Part shown: positions 781 to 54,591 of the stretch, piece by piece | Position numbering within the stretch: position 1 is the stretch's first letter | How the letters are laid out: each line of letters starts with the position of its first letter | Origin: Onthophagus taurus | Lineage: Eukaryota; Arthropoda; Insecta; Coleoptera; Scarabaeidae | Length of the DNA: 64,000 nucleotides | Direction of reading: 5' to 3' | Assembly (NCBI RefSeq): GCF_036711975.1 | Contig: NC_091966.1 | Span: 6,455,501-6,519,500 of the forward strand | Notes under the pieces: model-generated | What the model was told of the DNA's origin: nothing | Database searches by the model: none | What the model saw: the letters and a program-made list of their open reading frames with translations, nothing else | Made by a program: the position numbers and the translations under genes

Positions 781-880
781 CGGAACGGTATTCGTACTAG
801 ATGTGGCTCTGAACCAGACATGGTACTATCACCAGCGTTCAACAATGCTTGTTTTAGCCTGATCTGTTTGCATATGCATT

Positions 881-1418
881 TGTTACCACCCCCGAGCGTG
901 AGGTGGTAAGAGGCCCCCGAGTATATTCTCGGAGAAGGGTATTCTCCTCGGGTCCACTCTTTATAGGAGCCTCGTAACGTGGTTAAGTGTGTCAAAAGAC
1001 AATGGGGAAAGGATCAAGCGGCGGATGTCAATAAACAAAATACAAAAGATCAATAAAAACTTTGAATTAATTAATGAGATACTTTAATTTAATTTCTTTT
1101 AAACGCAAATAAAATAAACAAAAAAAAAAAAAACAGTAATTATTTCTATCTCGTACTCACATAATGGTTTTTGGGTTGATTGACACCTTTTTCTTCTCTA
1201 CTTTCTTCTCTTATTTTTCTCTTTTAATTTCTTTTAGTCTTTTTCCACTTTTCATTCCCACACTTTACCCATGCCTCTACTCTAACTCTCGACCACACTC
1301 TCTCTAACTTCTCCTGTCTGCCTGCTCTTTTCGCGAGTCCCTCATCCGTTGTCCCCACTCCCAAAATATTTCTGTACTTCCCCGAATTAAATATAGATAT
1401 CTTTTCTGACTTGTTACA
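881..1418 (-). repeat. 3' LTR of the endogenous retrovirus
   Basis: 538 bp, beginning TGTTACCACC and ending GACTTGTTACA on the plus strand. On the transcribed (minus) strand a TATA box CTATAAAG lies at about 958-965, close to the downstream end, so U3 is long and R-U5 is short (roughly 60-80 bp). It matches the other LTR base for base as far as I can see. Confidence 0.95.
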
Positions 1419-1420
1419 TT

Positions 1421-1432
1421 ACTCCCCCCTTT
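1421..1432 (-). other. Polypurine tract
   Basis: The minus strand reads AAAGGGGGGAGT two bases before the 3' LTR. This is the expected primer site for plus-strand DNA synthesis. Confidence 0.8.
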
Positions 1433-2356: not shown

Positions 2357-4336
2357 TCATGGCGTCTCTTGTACAATATGGATTTCCGGATACATCACTT
2401 TACTGCTATGGGGTGCTGTAGGTTGAACAGAATGACCATCTTGTACTCGTGCAAAATCTTCCTGGTTCTCTGGATCTGATACTTTGTGATTATAACTTCG
2501 ATGTAAAAACCATGAAGTTAAAGTCGTCCAAAAACTGGCAATAATCGAAAATCCGCATCCCAGAGCCTGGTATAAAACAAAACCATTTAAAATTACTGAA
2601 CAAATATATTTTAGGATGATAAATGCTATGTATATTCCCATAAATCCTGACATAAAAATCCCAATATCGGTAAACCAACCCCAAGCATAACTTAGTGTCG
2701 ACTTAGCGATTCGTTTAATTTCTTTTGAACTAAATAATTTTGTTGTGTCGTACTGGTTTGAATCATCAGTTCTACCTGCAACCCGATTGACTAAAAATGA
2801 GGTAATTGCATCACGCTCGGATCCAAACAGAAAATTATGTTGAATCTTATCAATTTCATTTTGAGTATACAATCCTCCACTTCCCAAATTTCGAATAGGA
2901 CTAAATTTTATATTATTTTCATCGTTAATTTCTAAAGAAGCTGGAGAATTATACACTGTGGGATATGGACTAAATCCTACCCATCGGTTCTCTATGTAAA
3001 ATAGTGAAGGAGCTACCGGAGAGCACATTATCTCTTCGGCATGCTCTTGCACTACATGTGTGATTGGAGCCATAAATAATGACTCATTGTTATTAACCAG
3101 TATCGGCAATTCATTATAGCATTTATCAACCCTTCGCACTTCTGCGATTTTTGGTTCACATTTAATGATGTATAAAACTTCCCCTAAAACCCTTCCCATA
3201 TACCCCAGAGAAGTCTTGAAAATACTGGCAATAGCATTTGTATTTAAAGGTGCCATCAACAATCTATTTCTCAATACTTCTCTCTTTATTAAACATCTTC
3301 GATATACTGCTTGAACATGTAACTCTCTAAACAATAATTTTGACGAAATTTCAATATACATAAATTTTGAATTAACATATGTCAACAGATTTATATTATT
3401 GACGTCATGAGTTTTAGAATTTAAATGATAAAAAGCATTTTTAGATTTTGTTACTAGTAATCGAGGATGTTCGGTAACCCAAACCTCATAGTTACATACA
3501 ATACCCTTCCTTAGTAGATTCAATGCAAAGATGTATTCGTCTTGCTCAACAACCAAATAATTTTCAACTGTATCCTGACTACTTACTGAAACTTCTGTTC
3601 CAATACCTTCATAAATAATTGAATATTGCCGTTTCTTACAAGCTCCTTGTTCTATTTCATCCCAAATAGTTTCACCTGCTTCAACATCCATACAGTATCC
3701 ATCTACAAATGGACATGTAACTCCTCCCATCAATGATATTTCATTAGAATCCAAAGCGATAGTGGCATAATATTCTTTTAACATAAATGTAACAGCTGCA
3801 GTAACAACTACCCTAGACCATGTCTGACCATTTTCTGTATAAACTGTTCCTTCACAATCTCCGTTCATAGATAACTTCCCAGCAACGGTAATTGATGCAG
3901 ATGTTGTGGCATTTACTTTTATATTAGAAATAACATTCCCTGAATATCCTATATAAGTACCAGTATTATGAAGTTTTCGACACTCATCTCGTCCAATTGG
4001 CCTGATGGTTTTCATCAACCCTTGGTGGACATCACTAACATGACTATTCATACCACAATATCTTATCAACCGTGTTACTTCTATAAGACAAGTTTTTACT
4101 TTTATTTTGGAATAGTCATTTTTCTGAATCACTCGGACATTTATTTTCTTCTCGGTGTAGTTTGTTTGCGGAGATGGACAGGGTGCCACATCGTGAAGCG
4201 ACACTGCTGTAATGTTGGTAGATGGTCCCCGACAATCGTATACAATTAAACCCTTTATATACATCCCCGTAAAAATCAGTAGCCAACTAGTTAAATAGAA
4301 CCTGAAAATATATATTTTATTAATGTATTCAAACAA
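2357..4336 (-). CDS. env: Env-like glycoprotein, expressed by splicing
   Basis: Open frame of 659 codons after pol. It opens with TTG after a stop codon, and the first ATG is codon 25, inside the hydrophobic leader. A splice acceptor at 4302-4303 lies in frame before the leader, so the first true exon codon is probably about residue 12. Visible features are a signal-like hydrophobic stretch about 13-33, a Cys-rich ectodomain with N-glycosylation sequons (N41, N59, N142, N417), hydrophobic membrane segments about 556-611, and a cytoplasmic tail with PTAP at 639-642. There is no furin-type RxxR followed by a fusion peptide as in baculovirus-F/errantivirus Env. The N-terminal motif pattern around YDC...NIT...SLHDV resembles chuvirus-type glycoproteins, a family call from memory. 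The stop at 2357 leaves a long A-rich 3' region. Confidence 0.8.
   Translation of the reverse strand: MFEYINKIYIFRFYLTSWLLIFTGMYIKGLIVYDCRGPSTNITAVSLHDVAPCPSPQTNYTEKKINVRVIQKNDYSKIKVKTCLIEVTRLIRYCGMNSHVSDVHQGLMKTIRPIGRDECRKLHNTGTYIGYSGNVISNIKVNATTSASITVAGKLSMNGDCEGTVYTENGQTWSRVVVTAAVTFMLKEYYATIALDSNEISLMGGVTCPFVDGYCMDVEAGETIWDEIEQGACKKRQYSIIYEGIGTEVSVSSQDTVENYLVVEQDEYIFALNLLRKGIVCNYEVWVTEHPRLLVTKSKNAFYHLNSKTHDVNNINLLTYVNSKFMYIEISSKLLFRELHVQAVYRRCLIKREVLRNRLLMAPLNTNAIASIFKTSLGYMGRVLGEVLYIIKCEPKIAEVRRVDKCYNELPILVNNNESLFMAPITHVVQEHAEEIMCSPVAPSLFYIENRWVGFSPYPTVYNSPASLEINDENNIKFSPIRNLGSGGLYTQNEIDKIQHNFLFGSERDAITSFLVNRVAGRTDDSNQYDTTKLFSSKEIKRIAKSTLSYAWGWFTDIGIFMSGFMGIYIAFIILKYICSVILNGFVLYQALGCGFSIIASFWTTLTSWFLHRSYNHKVSDPENQEDFARVQDGHSVQPTAPHSSKVMYPEIHIVQETP
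4301..4315 (-). promoter_or_regulatory. Splice acceptor for env mRNA
   Basis: The minus strand reads ATATATATTTTCAG followed by GTTCTATTTA. The junction is just before position 4301. The acceptor interrupts the env frame after the second base of a codon, so a donor exon ending in that phase and carrying an ATG is needed. The matching donor was not identified. Confidence 0.65.
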
Positions 4337-4487: not shown

Positions 4488-7400
4488 TTAAATTCTTTTC
4501 GGTAATACCCATGGCAATTCTGGTACATCACCTCTACTTCTGGTAAGATATGAATGCCCAGTGTTTTCTTCTCTTTGAACCGTTGTATCATTCCCTGGTT
4601 CAGTTGTTTCGAGGTTAGTATCTTCTATATTTTCTTCTGGAACGTATTCCACTATACTCTGAGCTGTCTGTTCTTCTAACAGATCTTCCCCTCCGTCTTC
4701 GTTATTTTGGTCCGGAAATACTTTCCAATCATACCACATAGGTTCTTCTATATCAAAACTCAATTTGTTGTTCTCTAGGTCTTTAGTATCTGACTCTTTC
4801 TTTCTCTTTTCTTCAACATCTCCCTTATAGAGTTTTATACGATTCGAATGTACTAATTCGACTTTTGAACCATTAATTTCCTTTATTTTAAAGTTTACTG
4901 GACCTGTTTGTCCTATTATTCGGTATGGTCCTACCCATGGTTTACTTAACTTTAAATTTACTCCAGTTTTGATCCCTGGATTATATAATAATACTTTGTC
5001 ACCTAGTTCCAGATTTTTCTCTTTAGCCCTTTTATTAAATTGAACTAATTGTTTATTTTTAGCTTTGACCTCATGACTTCTCACAAACTGATACGATTGA
5101 TGTAATCGTTCCAGCAGTTCGGATACGTAATTGTCGTCATAATCATATCGATAACGATCTGGTTTGGTATAAAGTTCGTAGGGTAGATTCATATCCCTTC
5201 CGTGAAGTAAAAAGTATGGAGACTCTCCGGTAGTAGAATGTACGTTGTTTCGGTAAGCCATCATTACATATGGCAACCAATCGTCCCAATCTTTTTGTTT
5301 ATCATCTACCACATGAGATAGTAAGTCCTTTAAAACTCGATGCATTCTCTCAATCATGCCATTCGTTTGTGGATGATATGGAGTAGTGCGAATCTTTTTG
5401 ATTTGTAGTAATTTACATACTTCGTCCATTAATTTCGACATGAAATTTGTGCCTTGATCGGTAAGTAATACCTTTGGAGTCCCATGCCGCGTAATCACAT
5501 GCACCACAAAAGCTTTCGCCACTGTCTCAGCCTTCTGATTTTGCAATGGGATCGCTTCGGTGTATCTCGTAAAATAATCTTGAACCGTGAGTATATATTT
5601 ATTTCCATTGTAGGTGATCGGCAATGGTCCTACGATATCCATTGATACCCTTTCAAATGGTTCCTGTGCTGGCGTAAATAATTGTAATGGAGCTGGTTTT
5701 AAATGTGACGAACTTTTCCGTTTGTTACAGGCTAAACATTTGTCACAGTAGCTTTTTATATCGTCGCCCATATTTTTCCAATAGTACTTTTGCTTCACCT
5801 GAGACTTGGTTTTATCGACTCCAAAATGTCCAGCATACGGCAAGTCATGACATTGATACATAATTTCTTTTCTTAATTCCGTTGGTACTACTAATCTATG
5901 GTATCTTTCATTCTGTTGTTTTGTTTTATATAGTATCCCCTCTTCGTCAATAAAGAAATCTAAATACTTTGGATCGTTTTCAATTCTTGCAATAATAGTT
6001 TTAGCAAAACAATCCTCCTTCTGTTTATCTGCTATTGTTTTTATCTCTTCGGTGGTTAAAGAATTTACTCCTGCCTCTATTTGCACTCTGGATAACGCAT
6101 CAGCGTTTCCGTGTAATCGTCCTGGTCGATGTGTTATTTCAAAGTCGTATTCTGCTAGCGTTAATGCCCATCGGGCTAAACGTGAGCTTGGATCTTTGAT
6201 TGACAATAACCATTTTAATGGTCGATGATCTGTTATGATTTTAAAATGTTTTCCAAACAAATATACCCGATAATGTTTAACGCCCCATATCACCGCCAAG
6301 CATTCTCTTTCTGTAGTGGAGTAATTCATTTCTGCTTTTTGTAGTTGCCTACTGGCATATGCCACAGGTTTTTCATGTCCTCCAACTTTTTGACTTAGTA
6401 TAGCTCCTATTGCTATTCCCGAAGCATCCGTGGTTAGATAAAAAGGTTGTGTGAAATCAGGATAGTGTAAAACAGGTTTATCACACAAAGATTTCCGAAG
6501 TAAAGTAAATGATTTTTCCTGTTCTTCTCCCCAAATAAAAGGTTGATCCTTTTTTGTTAATGCCGTTAAAGGTTTAGCAATTGCTGAATAACTTTCAATA
6601 AACCGCCTATAAAATCCTGCTAATCCTAAAAATGCCCGAATATCTTTTACAGTTTTTGGTTTAGGATAATTAAGTACAGCTTGAACTTTTTCTGCATCTG
6701 GTTTGATTCCTTCGTTTGAAATAACGTGACCCAAATATTTGGTTTCGGATAGTAAAAACTTGCATTTACTTGGTTTTAATCTCAAATTTGCCCTTCTAAT
6801 TCTTTCAAACACTTCTTTCAGTCTGTTTAGATGTTCAATTATTTCGTTCCCACTGAATACTATAACGTCGTCTAAATAAACTAAACACTTACTCCCCGTT
6901 AATCCCGATAAATTGGTATTCATTAACCGTTGAAAGGTACTGGGCGCATTGACCAGACCAAATGGCATCTTTTTACAATGATAGTGCCCTTCTGGCGTAC
7001 TAAATCCGGTTTTTTCTTGATCTTCTTCTTCTATTTCCACTTGCCAATACCCAGAAGCAAGGTCTAGTGTTGTAAATATGGTAGAACTTCCCAATCTATC
7101 TATTGTTTCGTTCAGGTTAGGTAACGGATAGAAATCCCTCTTAGTGACTGAATTTAACCCTCGGTAGTCAATACATACTCGAACTTCTTGTTTTCCATTA
7201 TCAGACTTTTTCGGTACCATAACAACAGGTGCTGACCAAGGTGATTGCGACTCTTCAATCACTCCTTCGTCAAGCATTTTGCTTATTTCTTTATTTAAAA
7301 TTTCCCTTTGACTATGTGGTACTCGGTATGGTGGTTTTGCAATTGGATGACAAGCCTCTGTAACAATTCTATGTTTCACGCCATTAGCAGTTCCCAATTT

Positions 7401-9251
7401 ATTATTTCCAAATAAAAAGATATCTTTGTACTCAATTAACAATTTTAATAATAACCGTTTATCTTCACCTTTCAAATGATTTAAATCAAATAACTTTTGT
7501 ATGTCATCCTCCGCGTTTTCAATTCCAGTATCTATTACACGAACTGAATAAGGGTTCACATCCCTATCCAATCCATTAAGATGATAAATTCTCACCCAAA
7601 TATTTGATCCTTTAAATATCCATCTGATCATATTGATAACTCTGTCCCACTTTAACCCATCTAACCCACAAGCAATCTTTGGTAGGGCTAATTTATGAAT
7701 ATTATTTTTCTCACAAAATTCCCTTAATTTTCCCAAGGTATAAAACAAATCTTCGTAAGTTGGTTTATAAAAATATTTTCTTTTAGTAATAAGGTACAAA
7801 ATATACCTTCCATCTCGTCTTAAATACAAAACATCTCTCACTTTTGGATTCTGTTTATTTAATTCTTTTATTCCCATAAATTTCTCTTTGACTTCAGCAG
7901 CGATTCCTGCTCCCATTTTCAAATCTTCACTCACACAATGTGCCAAGCTATAATCCCTCGGCGCATCAAATAAATTACCCTTATCTTCAAGAATATCCCA
8001 ATTTTCTACAATATTTTTCGATATTTTCTCTTCGTATTCCCTGTAATTTCCATACATTTTCTCCCTTTTATGAGTAGTGCTATTTACACCATTTACATTT
8101 TCAAGTTGAGGTACCTCTTCCCAAATCCCAGCTGATGAATTCTCATCTCCTTTGTGTTCAATATCAATTTTATTTACGCGCGTAATAATTCCAACACTTG
8201 TTCCCTTATTCAACATTAATGGTTTCTCGGTGACGTTGATCAGGCGCACCGGAACCCGTTGATTTTTATTTACCCTTGTTACAACTCTTGCTGACATTGA
8301 CCCATAAACACCCGTATCAATTGGTTCAATGATAACTTCTTCATCTTTTTCCCATTGGTTTTGTAAAGCTTCACAAACAACCTCACATCGTCCCGGAATT
8401 TCTAAAGCCTCCATCAACAGAGCCGAACAGGGACCAACTGTTCGTTCTGTATCACCAATCATCTTTGGTCCAGATGACGATGATCTCTCCGTGTCCTTTT
8501 CTTTCTCTCGATGATCCTTCGTTTGTGTTTGCATTACTCCAACCTTTTCCATATTTTCTTTATTCGCTATCTTTTGTTTATCGCCCCCATTTGACAAACC
8601 AAAACCCAATTCCGAAGATTTATCGGAAAATAATAGTTCTTCATTTTTCGATGTTAACACCTTAAATGGGAAACTTTTAGTTAAAACTGGAGAGGGAGTT
8701 TTCATAATTTGTGTTTGGCAGTTGCTTTTCTCGCTCATATTCATGTCATTTTGTAAACAGTTCCCATGCGCAGTAGAAGATTTTTGTCTTTTTGATGATG
8801 TCATGATCAATTTCAAGTGAATATGTCCTAACTTCAAAATTCCCTGATTATAATCAAGAATAGCTTGATTGCTAATTAGGAAGTCGCATCCGATTATCCC
8901 ATCGGTTTCAATGGCAATATTTTTACAAATCACACAATTAATATTAAATTTCTTGTTTTTCACCCTAAAATCTAACAAAGAAAATCCTACTCCTTCTACT
9001 TCATTTCCCGTGATACCTTTTAAAGTTATATGTTGTTGCAAATCTAATTGGTAATTAATTTTTGTCCGGAGTAAACTCTCCTCCTTCAATAACGATACTG
9101 CTGAACCCGAATCAATCAAAAATGATAATTTTGTACACCCCATTGTTAAAAAAATTATGGATTTGTCTGCCTCTGAATTTATAGCACTGCTAACTGATTT
9201 TACTATTGCGTTTTTATTTGTAATCTGATCATTTACCCCTGGATTTAACAT
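4488..9251 (-). CDS. pol: Pol polyprotein: protease, macro domain, RT, RNase H, integrase
   Basis: 1587 aa, no stops. Order by residue: retropepsin-like protease about 30-145 (DSG at 47-49, flap-distal GIIGCDF at 118-124); variable linker about 150-280; small beta-rich domain beginning IPGR (about 285-358), common in animal Gypsy elements; macro domain 418-558; reverse transcriptase about 600-850 (YLDD at 792-795); RNase H about 935-1055 (TDAS at 941-944); integrase zinc finger about 1135-1175 (HHCC) and catalytic core with D1205, D1265, E1301 (35-residue spacing); C-terminal tail to 1587. All catalytic signatures are present, so the enzyme set looks functional. It is probably made by -1 frameshifting from gag. 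The macro domain is the unusual part and has its own entry. Confidence 0.95.
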   Translation of the reverse strand: MLNPGVNDQITNKNAIVKSVSSAINSEADKSIIFLTMGCTKLSFLIDSGSAVSLLKEESLLRTKINYQLDLQQHITLKGITGNEVEGVGFSLLDFRVKNKKFNINCVICKNIAIETDGIIGCDFLISNQAILDYNQGILKLGHIHLKLIMTSSKRQKSSTAHGNCLQNDMNMSEKSNCQTQIMKTPSPVLTKSFPFKVLTSKNEELLFSDKSSELGFGLSNGGDKQKIANKENMEKVGVMQTQTKDHREKEKDTERSSSSGPKMIGDTERTVGPCSALLMEALEIPGRCEVVCEALQNQWEKDEEVIIEPIDTGVYGSMSARVVTRVNKNQRVPVRLINVTEKPLMLNKGTSVGIITRVNKIDIEHKGDENSSAGIWEEVPQLENVNGVNSTTHKREKMYGNYREYEEKISKNIVENWDILEDKGNLFDAPRDYSLAHCVSEDLKMGAGIAAEVKEKFMGIKELNKQNPKVRDVLYLRRDGRYILYLITKRKYFYKPTYEDLFYTLGKLREFCEKNNIHKLALPKIACGLDGLKWDRVINMIRWIFKGSNIWVRIYHLNGLDRDVNPYSVRVIDTGIENAEDDIQKLFDLNHLKGEDKRLLLKLLIEYKDIFLFGNNKLGTANGVKHRIVTEACHPIAKPPYRVPHSQREILNKEISKMLDEGVIEESQSPWSAPVVMVPKKSDNGKQEVRVCIDYRGLNSVTKRDFYPLPNLNETIDRLGSSTIFTTLDLASGYWQVEIEEEDQEKTGFSTPEGHYHCKKMPFGLVNAPSTFQRLMNTNLSGLTGSKCLVYLDDVIVFSGNEIIEHLNRLKEVFERIRRANLRLKPSKCKFLLSETKYLGHVISNEGIKPDAEKVQAVLNYPKPKTVKDIRAFLGLAGFYRRFIESYSAIAKPLTALTKKDQPFIWGEEQEKSFTLLRKSLCDKPVLHYPDFTQPFYLTTDASGIAIGAILSQKVGGHEKPVAYASRQLQKAEMNYSTTERECLAVIWGVKHYRVYLFGKHFKIITDHRPLKWLLSIKDPSSRLARWALTLAEYDFEITHRPGRLHGNADALSRVQIEAGVNSLTTEEIKTIADKQKEDCFAKTIIARIENDPKYLDFFIDEEGILYKTKQQNERYHRLVVPTELRKEIMYQCHDLPYAGHFGVDKTKSQVKQKYYWKNMGDDIKSYCDKCLACNKRKSSSHLKPAPLQLFTPAQEPFERVSMDIVGPLPITYNGNKYILTVQDYFTRYTEAIPLQNQKAETVAKAFVVHVITRHGTPKVLLTDQGTNFMSKLMDEVCKLLQIKKIRTTPYHPQTNGMIERMHRVLKDLLSHVVDDKQKDWDDWLPYVMMAYRNNVHSTTGESPYFLLHGRDMNLPYELYTKPDRYRYDYDDNYVSELLERLHQSYQFVRSHEVKAKNKQLVQFNKRAKEKNLELGDKVLLYNPGIKTGVNLKLSKPWVGPYRIIGQTGPVNFKIKEINGSKVELVHSNRIKLYKGDVEEKRKKESDTKDLENNKLSFDIEEPMWYDWKVFPDQNNEDGGEDLLEEQTAQSIVEYVPEENIEDTNLETTEPGNDTTVQREENTGHSYLTRSRGDVPELPWVLPKRI
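7578..8000 (-). other. Macro domain (TARG1/OARD1 type) inside pol
   Basis: Pol residues about 418-558 form a complete macro domain and are most like TARG1/OARD1, the cellular ADP-ribose glutamate hydrolase. Visible hallmarks are GNLFDAPRDYSLAHCVSEDL at 425-444, the ligand loop KMGAGIA at 445-451, the DGRYILYLITK strand ending at Lys490, KPTYEDL at 496-502, and KIACGLDGLKW with Asp531. Lys490 and Asp531 correspond to the catalytic Lys84 and Asp125 of human TARG1, with the same 41-residue spacing. The domain is bounded by low-complexity linker on one side and RT on the other, as expected for a captured module. ADP-ribose binding or removal is inferred from the family; no function has been shown here. 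Confidence 0.88.
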
Positions 9252-10411
9252 TTTCCCTCGGATTGGGGTACATACGAGGTGGCATTTAGGTTTAAATGAC
9301 TGGTTCCCGTTCTTATAAAATTTTGTGTTTCATTTGGGTTGCGTGATTCATTTCTTATATTTCCATTTTGATGGTTAAACTGAGTATGGGATCGAGTAGT
9401 ATGGTTACTCGTACCGGCTTGTCCCCTTGATTGGTTATTCTTTTTCCAACACTTAACTTCTACGTGACCCGTTTTTTTACAAAATCTACAAACAACCTCA
9501 TTCCGACAATTCCCAGAAAAATGTCCCGGTTGATAACATTTGTAACACACATTATTTGATTTTTGATTATATTTAAAATCAGGTTTTGTTGAGTTAGATT
9601 CGAAAGGTTTAGAAAATGATGAATGATATGAAATGGATGGGCGATTCTTTTTATTGAATTGCTGTGGTTTAAAATTTGGTTTATTAAAACTAACCCGTGG
9701 TGCAGTTGAATGAGGCTGAGATTTAGAAACACCTTCTTGAGAGAAATTACAAGCATATTCAGAATAATAACTATGTGAACAGTAGTTAATTGTATTTTCC
9801 GTCATCATCTGGTTCAATTCTTCTTGACTCGCTATTTCTGCGGCTTTATCGAGTGTTAAATCACTCTCTCGCATCAGCAAAACTCCAATAATCTTAGAAA
9901 TTTCCCGTTTTATTCCCATTCTAAATTGCGTCAATAGAATATTGTTATGTTTTTTAATTATACCCTCCCGTTCCGCCTGTGAAGCGTCAATTAAATCCTC
10001 TTCTAATACCTCCTGTCCAATTAATTTTAGTCGCGTGAGAAATTGACTGATAGTTTCGTTACGGCCCTGTATACATCTTGACAAAATTAGTTGAGCCTGA
10101 CCTGGTATTTTCAATTTCGAAAATTTTGTAATAAATTTTTGTTTGAATTGCTTATATGTTATTTCATTTGTTGATAAATTTGATTCGCTTTTATAGTAAC
10201 TGAATGCGTCTCCCGTTAGTCTACATCGCACGATTTTAATTAAGTCTTCGTCTCCAATGTTATCTAAACTTGCTCTCTGTTCTACTCGTTCAAAAAAATG
10301 TTTAACGTTCTCTTTACCAGTAAAATTTTCAATTGAATTTAAAATAGATGCTAATGATGGTTTAGGCATTTCAACTTTTACGATAGGTTTTTCATCTGTA
10401 TTTGTAGCCAT
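9245..10411 (-). CDS. gag: Gag polyprotein with two zinc knuckles
   Basis: 388-aa structural protein. Residues about 20-200 have the helical, charged composition of Gypsy capsid regions, including the ATP-independent retrotransposon-gag type segment around residues 85-135. The C-terminal third is basic and Asn/Gln-rich and carries two CCHC zinc knuckles: C289-C292-H297-C302 and C308-C311-H316-C321, for RNA binding and packaging. The start is a genuine ATG at 10409-10411, the first after the leader in this frame. The stop at 9245-9247 overlaps the first Met codon of pol. I found no PTAP, PPxY or YPxL late motif in this Gag, which is notable given the PTAP in the Env tail. Confidence 0.9.
   Translation of the reverse strand: MATNTDEKPIVKVEMPKPSLASILNSIENFTGKENVKHFFERVEQRASLDNIGDEDLIKIVRCRLTGDAFSYYKSESNLSTNEITYKQFKQKFITKFSKLKIPGQAQLILSRCIQGRNETISQFLTRLKLIGQEVLEEDLIDASQAEREGIIKKHNNILLTQFRMGIKREISKIIGVLLMRESDLTLDKAAEIASQEELNQMMTENTINYCSHSYYSEYACNFSQEGVSKSQPHSTAPRVSFNKPNFKPQQFNKKNRPSISYHSSFSKPFESNSTKPDFKYNQKSNNVCYKCYQPGHFSGNCRNEVVCRFCKKTGHVEVKCWKKNNQSRGQAGTSNHTTRSHTQFNHQNGNIRNESRNPNETQNFIRTGTSHLNLNATSYVPQSEGKC
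9251..9257 (-). promoter_or_regulatory. Candidate -1 ribosomal frameshift site (gag-pol)
   Basis: The minus strand reads GGGAAAA, split G-GGA-AAA in the gag frame, a canonical X-XXY-YYZ slippery heptamer. It stands two codons before the gag stop. Slipping one base back puts ribosomes directly into the pol frame, whose first codon after the heptamer's GGG-AAA is ATG. I do not see a strong stem-loop or pseudoknot downstream by eye. Stop-start reinitiation at the ATGTTAA overlap is an alternative. Confidence 0.6.
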
Positions 10412-10844: not shown

Positions 10845-10862
10845 ATCCCACCGCTGCCACCA
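10845..10862 (-). other. Primer-binding site, tRNA-Leu
   Basis: Four bases inside the 5' LTR, the minus strand reads TGGTGGCAGCGGTGGGAT. This is the exact 18-nt complement of the 3' end of the eukaryotic tRNA-Leu whose acceptor stem pairs GGTAGCG with CGCTGCC, plus CCA. It marks the start site of minus-strand DNA synthesis and confirms element orientation. Confidence 0.85.
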
Positions 10863-10866
10863 AATA

Positions 10867-11404
10867 TGTTACCACCCCCGAGCGTGAGGTGGTAAGAGGC
10901 CCCCGAGTATATTCTCGGAGAAGGGTATTCTCCTCGGGTCCACTCTTTATAGGAGCCTCGTAACGTGGTTAAGTGTGTCAAAAGACAATGGGGAAAGGAT
11001 CAAGCGGCGGATGTCAATAAACAAAATACAAAAGATCAATAAAAACTTTGAATTAATTAATGAGATACTTTAATTTAATTTCTTTTAAACGCAAATAAAA
11101 TAAACAAAAAAAAAAAAAACAGTAATTATTTCTATCTCGTACTCACATAATGGTTTTTGGGTTGATTGACACCTTTTTCTTCTCTACTTTCTTCTCTTAT
11201 TTTTCTCTTTTAATTTCTTTTAGTCTTTTTCCACTTTTCATTCCCACACTTTACCCATGCCTCTACTCTAACTCTCGACCACACTCTCTCTAACTTCTCC
11301 TGTCTGCCTGCTCTTTTCGCGAGTCCCTCATCCGTTGTCCCCACTCCCAAAATATTTCTGTACTTCCCCGAATTAAATATAGATATCTTTTCTGACTTGT
11401 TACA
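10867..11404 (-). repeat. 5' LTR of the endogenous retrovirus
   Basis: Same 538-bp sequence as the copy at 881-1418, followed by the target duplication CATT at 11405-11408. It should drive the proviral transcript: the TATA box (minus strand) is at about 10944-10951, predicting a start near 10915-10922. The downstream R-U5 holds three small inverted repeats that can fold into consecutive stem-loops. Confidence 0.95.
10944..10951 (-). promoter_or_regulatory. TATA box in 5' LTR
   Basis: Plus-strand CTTTATAG, read as CTATAAAG on the minus strand. It is the only good TATA element in the LTR in the right orientation, about 80 bp before the LTR/internal boundary. Confidence 0.55.
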
Positions 11405-11408
11405 CATT

Positions 11409-12429: not shown

Positions 12430-14236
12430 TCAGATGTTTATGTTTTTCTTGTGAGGTTCCACGTCATCAATCCCACCGGAGGTAATACGAAATCGCACTT
12501 CTGCTTCTTCCATGTCGGGACTATCAAAAACTCTTGCAATTCGAACAGATCCCTCAGCATTGCTAAGCGAAATTCTCGAGGTGGAAGCATGAGCAAGAAT
12601 ATTCCCTCCAGTTGGCTTAGTAGTAGCCAATTGATCTTTAGAAAAATTAGAACTGATCTGATTCGTAATCAAAACGGCAATATTAAACTCTTCGCTCATT
12701 TTTTGAAGTTTCGACATCATCTGGGCCAGCTTGTGTTGCCTTTCGAAAATTTCCGCGCGTCCACTATAATCAACTCGAAAAGTCGCCATAATTGAGTCGA
12801 TAATCAATAGTTTGAAAACACCAGCCTCTTCGTGTAATTTTAAACTGACTTGATCTAATAACTCTGATTGATGCTCGGAATTGTATGCACGTGCGTACAA
12901 AATATTGTCTAAAACTGTTTCTTGGTTCAAATCGAATCGTTCGGCTATTGAACGTAATCGATTCGGGCGACTATAAAAAGTTAAGGAGAAATTTGATACC
13001 GAAGAGAGAAAGGGAAAAAATAAATTTGACTTACACCATTGTAATAAAGTTAAGCGCGTCTCGAGATTTCATGAGGAAAGTATTAACATAATAGTACAAA
13101 AAATTCTAAAATAGCCAAATACATTTTAAAACAGAAAATAAGGAAACACCAAGCTAAATAGAACATTATAATTGGAAACCACTCAATATTCAATACATAG
13201 TATGTATTGTACATACCACAAATCCGACGAAATTGAAAACACACAGGGAAATCTACTGGAATTAGTAGGGAGGTATGAAATCAACAATCACCCAAACTGA
13301 CGTGTTTGAATTAGCAGGTAAATGAACAAGAGTGTCTAATAATAAATATCCTCTCTTCCTCGCTTTGGTTTCTTAAATACTGTCAACCTCAAACCCTGTC
13401 ACATAAAAAATATTATAAGACTTATTTCCAAAAAACCCAAAGATGTATGAGGTACAACAATGGTTACAAGTTAAACTTTGCAATATTCTAGTTCCCTGGT
13501 TGTCCCTCCTAACTAAAACAAGCCTAACTTACGTTAACAAGAACTTTCATGAAAATAAAATATTTAAACAAAACATAAATTCGAATTTTAAAGGATACAA
13601 AGTATGTTCTGTGTCTATAAAAATAACTTTTCCACCAATATATCCATTAGGACCAGGCATTTGGGTTGTGACACATAATGTATGAGACAATTGAGTTTTT
13701 CCTGTACGAAATTCACCAAAAACTTCTGTTATAGACATAGCTTCTATACCACCTCCAATCAGTTTACTGAAAAAAAGATAAAAACTTTTTATTGAATCAC
13801 TCTAGTTATAAAAATGCACCCCTCTTTTACTATTCTAAGAATTAATCCATATGATAAATTAAACTTACTCAAAAGCTATACTCCCTGTACTCAATTTAAA
13901 AACTTGTTTCCTTTGAAATGAAACTTCATTCGCGGTCATAAAACTATTGGAAACCGAAATTTTACAAACGACGCCCTTAATTTCTTTAATTTTCGCCTCA
14001 TTAAACCCAGGAATTGTTAGTAATTTCTTCATAAGAGTCATTTGCATCCCTTTTATGGTATTTATTCCGTGTTGTTTTAATTTATCAATGTCTTCCTTTT
14101 TAACACCATGTTCCGCGAGCATTTCGATGTCTTGAAAGTATACATCCTCCTCTTCCTCTTCATTTTGCTCTATTACGGTGCTTACTTCCGTATTTTCGGC
14201 AACAACCTCAGGTAATTGTAGCACATTTTGGCTCAT
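12430..14236 (-). CDS. DMC1: Meiotic recombinase DMC1
   Basis: RecA/RAD51-family strand-exchange ATPase specific to meiosis, acting on single-stranded DNA at double-strand breaks. Three exons: 14236-13869, 13766-13599, 12970-12430, all GT/AG with continuous phase, giving 358 aa (DMC1 is usually about 340). The N-terminal helix-hairpin-helix region follows an acidic leader. Walker A GEFRTGKT is at about 140-147 and Walker B LLIID at about 233-237. The [17 protein letters not shown] block and [10 protein letters not shown] favour DMC1 over RAD51. The L2 loop region is shorter and more divergent than in vertebrates. A poly(A) signal lies near 12263-12268 (minus). The gene is divergent from importin-7. 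It appears intact. Confidence 0.92.
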
Positions 14237-52262: not shown

Positions 52263-54591
52263 ATGTTGAAGGTAAGTAAATAAATAAATTTTTTTAATCT
52301 TATAATGTTTGTTTAAATTATTATTAATTTTCTAATAAAACCATTAAGTTTTCGTACATTATTGCAAATTAATAAATTTCTTACTCATTTAGTCTTTTTA
52401 ATAATAAAAGAATTATTTTTAATATCACACTATTAAATGAAACAAATACTTAAATTATTATTTAATCTGCTAAAAATATAACTTAATATTTTAGTGTTTG
52501 TTATTGGCGGCATTATTCGCCGTAACCATCGTGCACAGTGAACCTCCAGTTTACCTTCCACCAAATGGTAAGTAATCGTCGATGGTCTCCTCAAAAAGGA
52601 AAATGTTAACTAATTTCACCAGCAATCTCTTCACACAACCACTTTGCTAACACATCTATGTTTTTCTCTTCCGTTTTCCTTTCCGCCTAATGTCCAATCT
52701 ACAGACGGCCCAAGCACCTCATACGGCCCGCCTGGGTTTCAACCGGGAACGCCTTTAGGACCCGGTGGTGGTAATAACGGCTTTGGTTCAAATGGTAGAC
52801 CAGGTGCAACTTACGGAGCACCCGGCAATGGTAACGGTAACGGACATAATGGAAATGGATATAGTAACGGAAGACCATCGTCAATGTATGGAGCACCGCA
52901 AAATGGAAATGGTAAACCAAGTTCTACTTATGGTGCACCAAATGGAAGACCTAGTTCGACTTATGGAGCTCCCGGCAACGGGAACGGAAATGGACATAGG
53001 AATGGTAATGGTCATTCAAACGGAAATGGGCACTCAAATGGAAATGGACACTCAAACGGTAATGGAAACGGAAATGGGAGACCAAGTTCAACATATGGCG
53101 CACCTGGACAAAACGGTTATAGTAATGGAAAACCTAGTTCTACTTATGGCGCACCTGGTCAGAACGGTAACGGTTTCGGTAGTCCAAACTCTAACTATGG
53201 CCCCCCAAGTTCAACTTATGGGAGTCCTAATCTAGGAGGTTACCGCACTCCAGACAGTGACCAAACCCCTGGATCTAGCTATCTTCCACCTGGTAATAGA
53301 TATTCTATTCATGTTCTTCCAAACTAAAGCTTAATTTTTGGTAACAATTTCTCAGCTTACCAAATACCAACATATTCGAACTATTTTACTTTTGATCCCG
53401 TTTCGAAAGTATTAGATTAACTAATTTTATTATTTAGGTAACGGAAATGGGAACGGTAATGGACATGGAAATGGTAACGGAAACGGTCATGGTAATGGAA
53501 ATGGTAACGGATACGGTAACGGAAATGGTAACGGCAATGGCAGAACATACTTAGCACCAAATGGTAACGGAAACGGCAATGGAAATGGCAACGGTAATGG
53601 AAATGGTCATGGCAACGGTAATGGCAACGGAAACGGAAACGGAAACGGAAATGGCAACGGTTATCCAAGTACAACATATGGAGCACCAAATGGTAACGGA
53701 AATGGTTATCCTCGTCCTGTTTACGGAGCACCAAATGGTAATGGTAACGGAAATGGCAACGGTAATGGCAATGGTCACGGAAATGGCAACGGAAATGGTA
53801 ACGGAAATGGTAACGGACACGGTAATGGAAATGGTAACGGACACGGTAATGGAAATGGTAACGGACACGGTAACGGAAACGGACACGGAAACGGAAATGG
53901 AAACGGAAACGGTTATCCTCGTCCAACTTATGGTGCTCCAAATGGAAACGGTAATGGAAATGGTCACGGAAACGGTAATGGAAATGGTCACGGAAACGGT
54001 AATGGAAATGGTTACAGAAACGGTAATGGTCACAATAATGGAAATGGCAACGGAAACGGTAACGGAAATGGTTATCCAAGTAACACCTATGGCGCACCCA
54101 ACGGAAACGGTAATGGAGTTGCACCAGTATACGGTGTCCCCAATGGAAACGGAAATGGCGATGAAGATAATGGAGTAAGCATTCATTCATCATTATCAAT
54201 AAATTAACTAATTAATAAAACTAACTCTAAATAATCTTTAATATTTTAACATTAGGTAGCAAGTTATTCTTTTGAATACCAAGTAGAAGATGCTGATGCT
54301 GGATTAGATTTTGGACATAAAGAAGAAAGAGAAGGTGATGTTGCCACTGGGGAATACAACGTACTTCTTCCTGATGGTAGAAAACAAATTGTTACATACG
54401 TCGCTGATACTGAAGGATATAAACCTGAAGTCAACTATGAAGGTAGTAATTTAAATTGTTTTTCGCAATCTTCTTTACACTTTTAACATAATTTCCTCTT
54501 TTTAACTGCTATAATTTCTTGTTATACAGAGGGTGCAGGGGGATACCCAGATGGAAATGGCAATGGTTACCCATCCGGCGGTCCCTATTAA
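52263..54591 (+). CDS. resilin: Pro-resilin, elastic cuticle protein
   Basis: Rubber-like matrix protein of wing hinges, tendons and jumping cuticle, cross-linked by di-tyrosine and bound to chitin. Six exons: 52263-52271, 52495-52567, 52705-53292, 53438-54174, 54256-54442, 54530-54591; phases match, 551 aa. Signal peptide MLKCLLLAALFAVTIVHSEP. Exon 3 encodes elastic repeats of GRPSSTYGAP type separated by Asn-Gly runs. Exon 4 is dominated by (Asn-Gly)n with a few YGAP units. Exon 5 is the chitin-binding Rebers-Riddiford domain of resilin form (YSFEYQVEDADAGLDFGHKE, LLPDGRKQIVTYVAD). Exon 6 ends the protein. If the intron after 53292 is retained, translation stops at 53327, giving an isoform without the chitin-binding domain. 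Confidence 0.92.
53438..54150 (+). repeat. Coding minisatellite for (Asn-Gly)n in resilin exon 4
   Basis: Imperfect hexamers AAYGGN repeat over about 700 bp, interrupted by His-Gly and YGAP-type units. Larger blocks such as GGTAATGGAAATGGTAACGG recur several times around 53815-53880 and 53945-54010, suggesting recent slippage or unequal exchange. The long minus-strand open frames over this region are artefacts of the repeat. Confidence 0.9.

Follow-up and report, generated by a model that had tools for sequence, protein, structure and literature searches.

The window analyzed here, a 64,000-nucleotide stretch of the genome of the scarabaeid beetle Onthophagus taurus (NCBI RefSeq assembly GCF_036711975.1, contig NC_091966.1, positions 6,455,501 to 6,519,500 of the forward strand), contains a retroelement whose parts all lie on the minus strand. 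Its intact pol frame holds, with the protease (PR) upstream and the reverse transcriptase (RT) directly downstream, a segment that by alignment is a true, full-length macro domain of the TARG1/OARD1 type. The element has the features of Ty3/Gypsy (Metaviridae), namely the order PR, RT, RNase H (RH) and integrase (IN), long terminal repeats (LTRs), a primer binding site, a polypurine tract, a short target-site duplication and an env gene. It is a young, recently mobile, env-bearing Gypsy element, its two LTRs being without any difference. Based on these features we take it to be errantivirus-like; the RT tree described below had no named reference element.

Over 139 residues, the segment aligns without a gap to human TARG1/C6orf130 (PDB 2lgr; phmmer against the PDB, E = 4.5e-39), and TARG1 entries are the sole PDB matches at E ≤ 0.01. 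A profile with the window domain as its first row (A4) finds TARG1 at 3.1e-53 and the next structure at 3.2e-9. Relative to the TARG1 structures (PDB 2lgr, 4j5q-4j5s), the whole domain is gap-free and the catalytic Lys, Asp and GAG loop are kept; TARG1 is a free-standing cellular enzyme, whereas the window macro is embedded in the polyprotein of a retroelement. The conserved pair, which we take to be Lys84 and Asp125 of TARG1, was placed by alignment at Lys490 and Asp531 of pol (counted from its first Met), with the same 41-residue spacing as in TARG1, and the ligand stretch HCVSEDLKMGAGIA, including the GAG loop, is unbroken. An earlier, sequence-only reading of this DNA had proposed a complete macro domain at 7578 to 8000 with this catalytic pair, this spacing and an intact loop. 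All of this holds; the match covers 7581 to 7997, on the minus strand, which that reading had left unstated.

The Pfam Macro model (PF01661), proposed there as a check, does detect the domain (E = 0.0014), but at 19 bits, under its gathering cut-off of 22; the macro domain of P0019, a protein from elsewhere, reaches 23.8 bits and passes. The NCBIfam DarG model also matches (E = 4.9e-11), indicating a profile-level kinship to the macro domain of the DarTG antitoxin. We rejected an assignment as DarG itself, since the match scores 42.5 bits against an equivalog cut-off of 250 and profile A4 places the domain much nearer TARG1.

The host genome (290.8 Mb in 33 contigs) was searched by tblastn with the domain and its flanks, and part of the matched loci were fetched. 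At least 82 matches were obtained. Among the matches listed, seven places on six contigs, the window included, encode a domain identical to that of the window in amino acids, all in the 1613-residue frame; three further matches are 98-99% identical, and eight of these ten close copies lie in an open 1613-residue frame. Both catalytic residues are retained in all ten (L001-L008, L029, L030). Among broken copies of the family, L032 keeps Lys and Asp, L031 has Lys→Asn and L033 ends near the Lys. The remaining matches are other Gypsy families and cellular genes. A genome search with env found the 659-residue frame open at seven places, at 99-100% identity, among the matches listed. Of two telomere patterns sought, TCAGG was absent and TTAGG formed one array.

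Features of the macro-bearing Gypsy element and their positions in the window (position 1 is the first letter of the window).
Feature	Position	Strand	Evidence
TARG1/OARD1-type macro domain, between protease and RT	7581..7997	(-)	phmmer against PDB TARG1
Catalytic Lys codon (TARG1 Lys84; Lys490 of pol)	7782..7784	(-)	alignment
Catalytic Asp codon (TARG1 Asp125; Asp531 of pol)	7659..7661	(-)	alignment
pol open frame, 1613 aa stop to stop	4488..9329	(-)	
gag open frame, 397 aa	9245..10438	(-)	gag domain; zf-CCHC weak, E 0.0011, under cut-off
Aspartic protease (DSG)	8877..9131	(-)	Pfam PF13975 E 0.0012, under cut-off; sequence itself
Reverse transcriptase	6720..7217	(-)	Pfam RVT_1 E 3.3e-35
RNase H	6204..6533	(-)	Pfam RT_RNaseH_2 E 3.6e-38, RT_RNaseH E 3.8e-35
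Integrase, H2C2 zinc domain and core	5370..5888	(-)	Pfam PF17921 E 3.1e-23, rve E 2.1e-15
env, 659 aa, class III fusion glycoprotein, Monjiviricetes (chuvirus-like) type	2357..4336	(-)	Pfam PF24664 E 5.5e-182
5' LTR, 538 bp	10867..11404	(-)	identical to 3' LTR
3' LTR, 538 bp	881..1418	(-)	identical to 5' LTR
Primer binding site	10845..10862	(-)	complementary to tRNA-Leu(AAG) 3' end and CCA
Polypurine tract AAAGGGGGGAG	1422..1432	(-)	
Target-site duplication CATT, left copy	877..880	no strand	
Target-site duplication CATT, right copy	11405..11408	no strand	
Slippery heptamer TTTAAAC	9290..9296	(-)	consensus match, right phase for -1 frameshift from gag to pol
Second slippery heptamer AAATTTT	9317-9323	(-)	consensus match

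The gag and pol frames overlap in the -1 frame, and the heptamer TTTAAAC lies in phase within the overlap. The tRNA 3' end matching the primer binding site occurs at seven places in the genome, and ARAGORN calls tRNA-Leu(AAG) at both of the two that were fetched.

The domain recurs in other elements of the same genome. By our own grouping of loci, about eight families carry a catalytic-type macro domain: the window family, L023, C (L014-L016), D (L017 and kin), L012, L013, E (L019 and kin) and F (L021). Mapping of the window GAG, PR, MACRO, RT, IN and ENV pieces onto the fetched loci places the domain beside RNase H or integrase in six of the seven families other than that of the window: between the two in L013-L020 and L022, directly after RNase H in the fragment L012 (where the integrase match is just E = 0.036), and ahead of integrase in L021, where RT was not seen. 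L023, a broken relative with a macro domain 58% identical to that of the window, holds it between the gag knuckle and RT, like the window. Among proteins from elsewhere, P0019 has the order PR-RT-RH-macro-IN, while P0020 and P0011 carry the domain after integrase, at the C-terminus of pol, followed by a weak CCCH zinc-finger match under its cut-off; in P0009, from the beetle Brassicogethes aeneus, this macro-finger pair stands in a record without pol.

Cellular OARD1 aside, our alignment has 14 catalytic-type rows, each with both Lys and Asp; these rows represent one copy per family and were chosen as recognizable. Eleven of them have pol/Gypsy context (window, L023, L013, P0019, L014, L012, L017, L019, L021, P0020, P0011), the context of P0004, P0010 and P0009 is unclear, and seven are 38-65% identical to the window domain. 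Outside this alignment, the decayed family-C copy L016 shows Asp→Asn.

About ten further families retain a recognizable but decayed domain. At the RNase H-integrase site these are L089 and kin (Lys→Gly), L026/L053, L048, L068, L071/L076, L072/L081, L065/L066 and L075. In L027, whose RT lineage is distant from that of the window, protease, decayed macro and RT follow in order, which is the window's own site; L028, of the same distant RT lineage, has a decayed macro ahead of RT, with its protease unmatched, and L057, L059 and L060, which resemble L028, may carry theirs there too. The sequence-only reading had suggested that the domain is no standard part of Gypsy pol and may define a lineage of its own, and had called for a search for the same insertion in other Gypsy pols. 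The literature that we searched indeed holds no account of it, but roughly eight catalytic-type and ten decayed families speak against a single lineage; a macro domain does occur in other Gypsy pols, mostly at the other site, beside RNase H or integrase.

Each of nine decayed domains (L089, L026, L068, L071, L081, L065, L075, L027, L028) beats 100 of 100 shuffles against the catalytic-macro profile, with hhalign probabilities from 98.6 down to 28.5. Independently of that profile, decayed copies alone betray the TARG1 kinship when searched against the PDB: A5, built from decayed copies only (L089, L044, L026, L068, L048), retrieves the five TARG1 sequences (6.7e-20 to 1.3e-19) and, apart from them, a single macro chain (0.12), and A6 (L027, L028, L057) finds TARG1 at 1.2e-8 and no other structure below 0.7. 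Against A3, which holds the window domain, cellular OARD1 and others, A5 and A6 score 99.5 and 98.2%. For A7 (L071, L081) and A8 (L065, L075), the match to A5 spans most of the profile, at 98.1 and 97.5%; on their own they have no PDB match at E up to 10 and reach the macro domain solely through A5. Reversed controls of the mixed profiles score 0.2%. None of the five A5 rows has the GAG loop, and three have lost the Lys, whose letter survives in L026 and L048. Of the nine decayed rows in the alignment, L026 alone shows both letters, Lys and Asp, at the corresponding columns, and its GAG loop is gone; L048 has both letters in a separate alignment and has lost the loop as well.

A macro domain in every RNase H-integrase spacer was considered but not borne out. 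The spacers of L086, L067, L073, L078, L079, L083 and L084 score like shuffles for macro (8 to 94 of 100 shuffles reach their score); all but L086 belong to one derived RT subclade, and a profile of five of those six subclade spacers (A9) hits no macro structure in a PDB search and matches neither A5 nor A8. L070 has no RNase H-integrase spacer, and L077 and L082, broken members of the same subclade, had their spacers left out of the tests.

Directly supported are the presence of the domain, the architecture, the intact catalytic pair, the young age of the element, the recurrence of the domain across many families and the mostly silent change between families. From these we infer, at slightly better than even confidence, that the macro domain serves as an ADP-ribose hydrolase delivered by Gag-Pol to the particle or the integration complex, where it would undo host ADP-ribosylation; use of the frameshift, packaging, catalysis, substrate and benefit to the element all belong to this inferred part. 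The domain would be translated in Gag-Pol through a putative -1 frameshift and, given the in-phase heptamer and its location in Gag-Pol, should be packaged, entering the particle with protease, RT and integrase. It would then be cut out or kept fused with RT. Within the particle or integration complex, it could remove ADP-ribose from acidic residues of Gag, Pol or host proteins or, alternatively, from viral RNA or complementary DNA (cDNA), undoing a host ADP-ribosylation step that slows the element. The nearest characterized enzymes take ADP-ribose off acidic residues and nucleic acid.

Family E (L019, L020, L125, L126 and kin) points to a task inside the cell, since it keeps an open pol with its macro domain where env is broken. 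Among the matches listed, 16 of its 22 near-full macro matches lie in an open 1692-residue pol frame. The genome env search, in which part of the candidates were scored, found family-E env fragments at 16 or more places, each with a stop. At least 11 of the 16 open pol frames adjoin such a fragment and a twelfth was seen by piece mapping, these 12 being the frames whose surroundings were covered; where reading was extended at one place, no long env frame remains. Possible intracellular tasks would be to shield Gag, Pol, RNA or cDNA from ADP-ribosylation by the host, or to quiet PARP signalling at integration gaps. Where the synonymous rate (dS) is readable, change between families is mostly silent: the nonsynonymous rate (dN) is 0.22 and dS 2.56 for the macro domains of E and F, and dN is 0.32 and dS 1.26 for D and L012, many other between-family dS values being saturated.

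Several points weigh against a selected hydrolase. An env supplied by another element would weaken the intracellular argument from family E. In about ten related families the domain remains although catalytic residues or the ligand loop are gone, so the activity is not needed in general; in those families, either the domain turned into a structural piece or the host pressure vanished. Pooled omega (dN/dS) within families is 0.26 for the window family, 0.66 for D, 1.39 for E, 0.68 for C and 0.39 for the decayed family H, partly near or above 1; with three to seven fetched copies per family, few changes and decayed copies included, these values say little. The sequence-only reading had named free variation of the catalytic residues among sister copies as a sign against it. 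Here the picture is divided: the families nearest by RT (L014, L017, L019) keep the residues, many related families have lost them, and even in the window's RT neighborhood the decayed L016 carries its Asp→Asn change.

That the domain is mainly a structural or binding module of pol (a spacer or tether linking RNase H to integrase or protease to RT, or a reader of ADP-ribose or nucleic acid), with catalysis inherited rather than selected, is unlikely but the best placed of the alternatives. About ten families still hold decayed versions in the same places, close enough to TARG1 for A5 to find it; these, their occurrence ahead of RT in L027 and L028, and the omega of family H are what such a module would leave. 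However, a mere spacer would drift and its catalytic pair and loop would be expected to be broken; both persist at 38-65% identity in the window family and the families closest to it by RT. Somewhat less likely still is a nucleic-acid substrate, with ADP-ribose stripped from viral RNA, cDNA or integration ends in the manner of DarG and TARG1, which act on ADP-ribosylated DNA. The NCBIfam DarG match points this way, as does the second-ranking structure found with A4 (PDB 5m31 at 3.2e-9, recorded as an Appr-1-p processing domain protein and presumably a DarG), and the macro domain adjoins RT, RNase H and integrase; position alone, however, gives no substrate.

To place the domain in the history of these elements, we compared RT and macro trees. 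The RT tree has 27 rows, after omission of 11 near-identical rows, L089, L087 and every locus with fewer than 190 residues in its best aligned stretch. One clade joins the window family to L014/L016, L017 and L019 (90/89). A second, of 19 rows (100/99), holds the catalytic L013 and P0019, decayed families, L070, L086 and eight rows with different-looking spacers. Presence of a macro domain or remnant at the RNase H-integrase site requires four changes on this tree, against a shuffled mean of 9.2, and 1 of 500 shuffles reaches four; here L077 and L082 were set absent without test and L072 present via the near-identical L081. This pattern is consistent with the domain having been acquired there once, long ago, and lost a few times. 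Among the 17 macro bearers, at least five changes of catalytic state are needed when L026 is scored as dead because its loop is missing and L016 because of the Asp→Asn seen in one decayed copy.

The window family has an RNase H-integrase site cleanly without macro and carries the domain ahead of RT instead. In the macro tree, its type groups with L023, P0004, L013 and P0019 (94/87, not starred), apart from its RT relatives. The RT data reject uniting the window family with L013 and P0019 (p = 2.9e-6), and also a single clade that holds it together with L014, L016, L017, L019, L013 and P0019 (p = 0.011), so the macro and RT groupings disagree in their point estimates. A position of the window family outside both RT clades is not rejected (p = 0.134). 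With L109 omitted, the macro data reject neither one clade of all retroelement-type macros (p = 0.29), nor the same clade minus the after-integrase macros (p = 0.19), nor a clade mirroring RT (p = 0.154). Since the window macro groups away from its RT relatives, it is a fair guess that recombination moved the domain between elements, on an alignment that is short and with alternative topologies not rejected. The intact and decayed versions in related elements of this genome suggest that the macro domain is an old, recurrent part of such Gypsy elements and not the oddity of one lineage. We tentatively go further, at somewhat less than even confidence: the RNase H-integrase domain of an old and extensive group of env-bearing Gypsy elements of animals may be a TARG1 macro domain by descent, an ancestral built-in ADP-ribose hydrolase that was moved to or retaken at the protease-RT site, was silenced many times and now passes as an anonymous spacer.

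A recent capture by the window family from its own host's OARD1 gene, which the sequence-only reading had proposed to date by phylogeny, is improbable. The host does have an OARD1-like gene (L009), with a short intron and 45% identity to the window domain, and a clade of host gene and window type is not rejected (approximately unbiased (AU) test, p = 0.087). This identity, however, is no higher than that to vertebrate, mussel and coral OARD1 (43-48%), and the macro tree disfavors such a capture, joining the window type instead to a group most of whose members are retroelement macros (94/87). L009 also has an Arg/Ser/Asn-rich stretch before its macro domain, and L010, on another contig, is a partial second copy of it with intron (462 bp, 96% identity). 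Chance similarity, an assembly error or a fused host gene has nothing in its favor and is refuted by the seven identical copies on six contigs, the three at 98-99% and the TARG1 match at E = 4.5e-39.

Coronaviruses, alphaviruses and hepatitis E virus carry a macro ADP-ribose hydrolase in the replication polyprotein, as proposed here; they differ in having no DNA stage and a macro domain of another branch. Phages carry TARG1-type macro domains too: 28 phage records match, as do 35 viral-contig loci with the profile, but none of the 35 loci matches the window gag, protease, RT, integrase or env (E ≤ 1e-3). A scan of viral contigs with the window domain as a single sequence gave no match. The phage macros (records H1-H12) are 34-39% identical to the retroelement domain. 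Closer in kind are the epsilon-like endogenous retroviruses of ray-finned fish, for which a passage of PMC4977317, citing Basta et al. 2009, describes macro domain proteins. These are likewise retrovirus-like elements bearing a macro domain, which as described in that passage forms additional open reading frames of Retroviridae-like elements and in the window lies inside Gypsy pol. The env-bearing Gypsy elements with a class III fusion glycoprotein of PMC13172572 share the gag-pol and chuvirus-like env arrangement; the main text of that article has no 'macro' or 'adp-ribos' wording. By word search over the text available for each, a macro domain goes unmentioned in PMC12440569, PMC13172572, PMC12992720, PMC5408684 and PMC6431247. 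Our literature search found no account of a macro domain in Gypsy pol, with eLife 108449 (on env-bearing Gypsy) outside that search and prior notice possible.

If the proposed hydrolase role and descent are right, animal LTR retroelements outside Retroviridae would possess a built-in ADP-ribose eraser, ADP-ribosylation would be indicated as a step by which invertebrates restrict retroelements, and several Gypsy families would have an origin for their unnamed RNase H-integrase spacer. The series from catalytic to dead domains within one genome, with active and inactive families sharing a cell, makes the role directly testable.

Elsewhere in the window, a piece of a Rad51-type gene lies at 12430-13068, about 1 kb past the 5' LTR. 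Positions 53443-54072 hold a tandem array of 12-, 24- and 48-base units with long open frames on both strands, which are likely an effect of the repeat.

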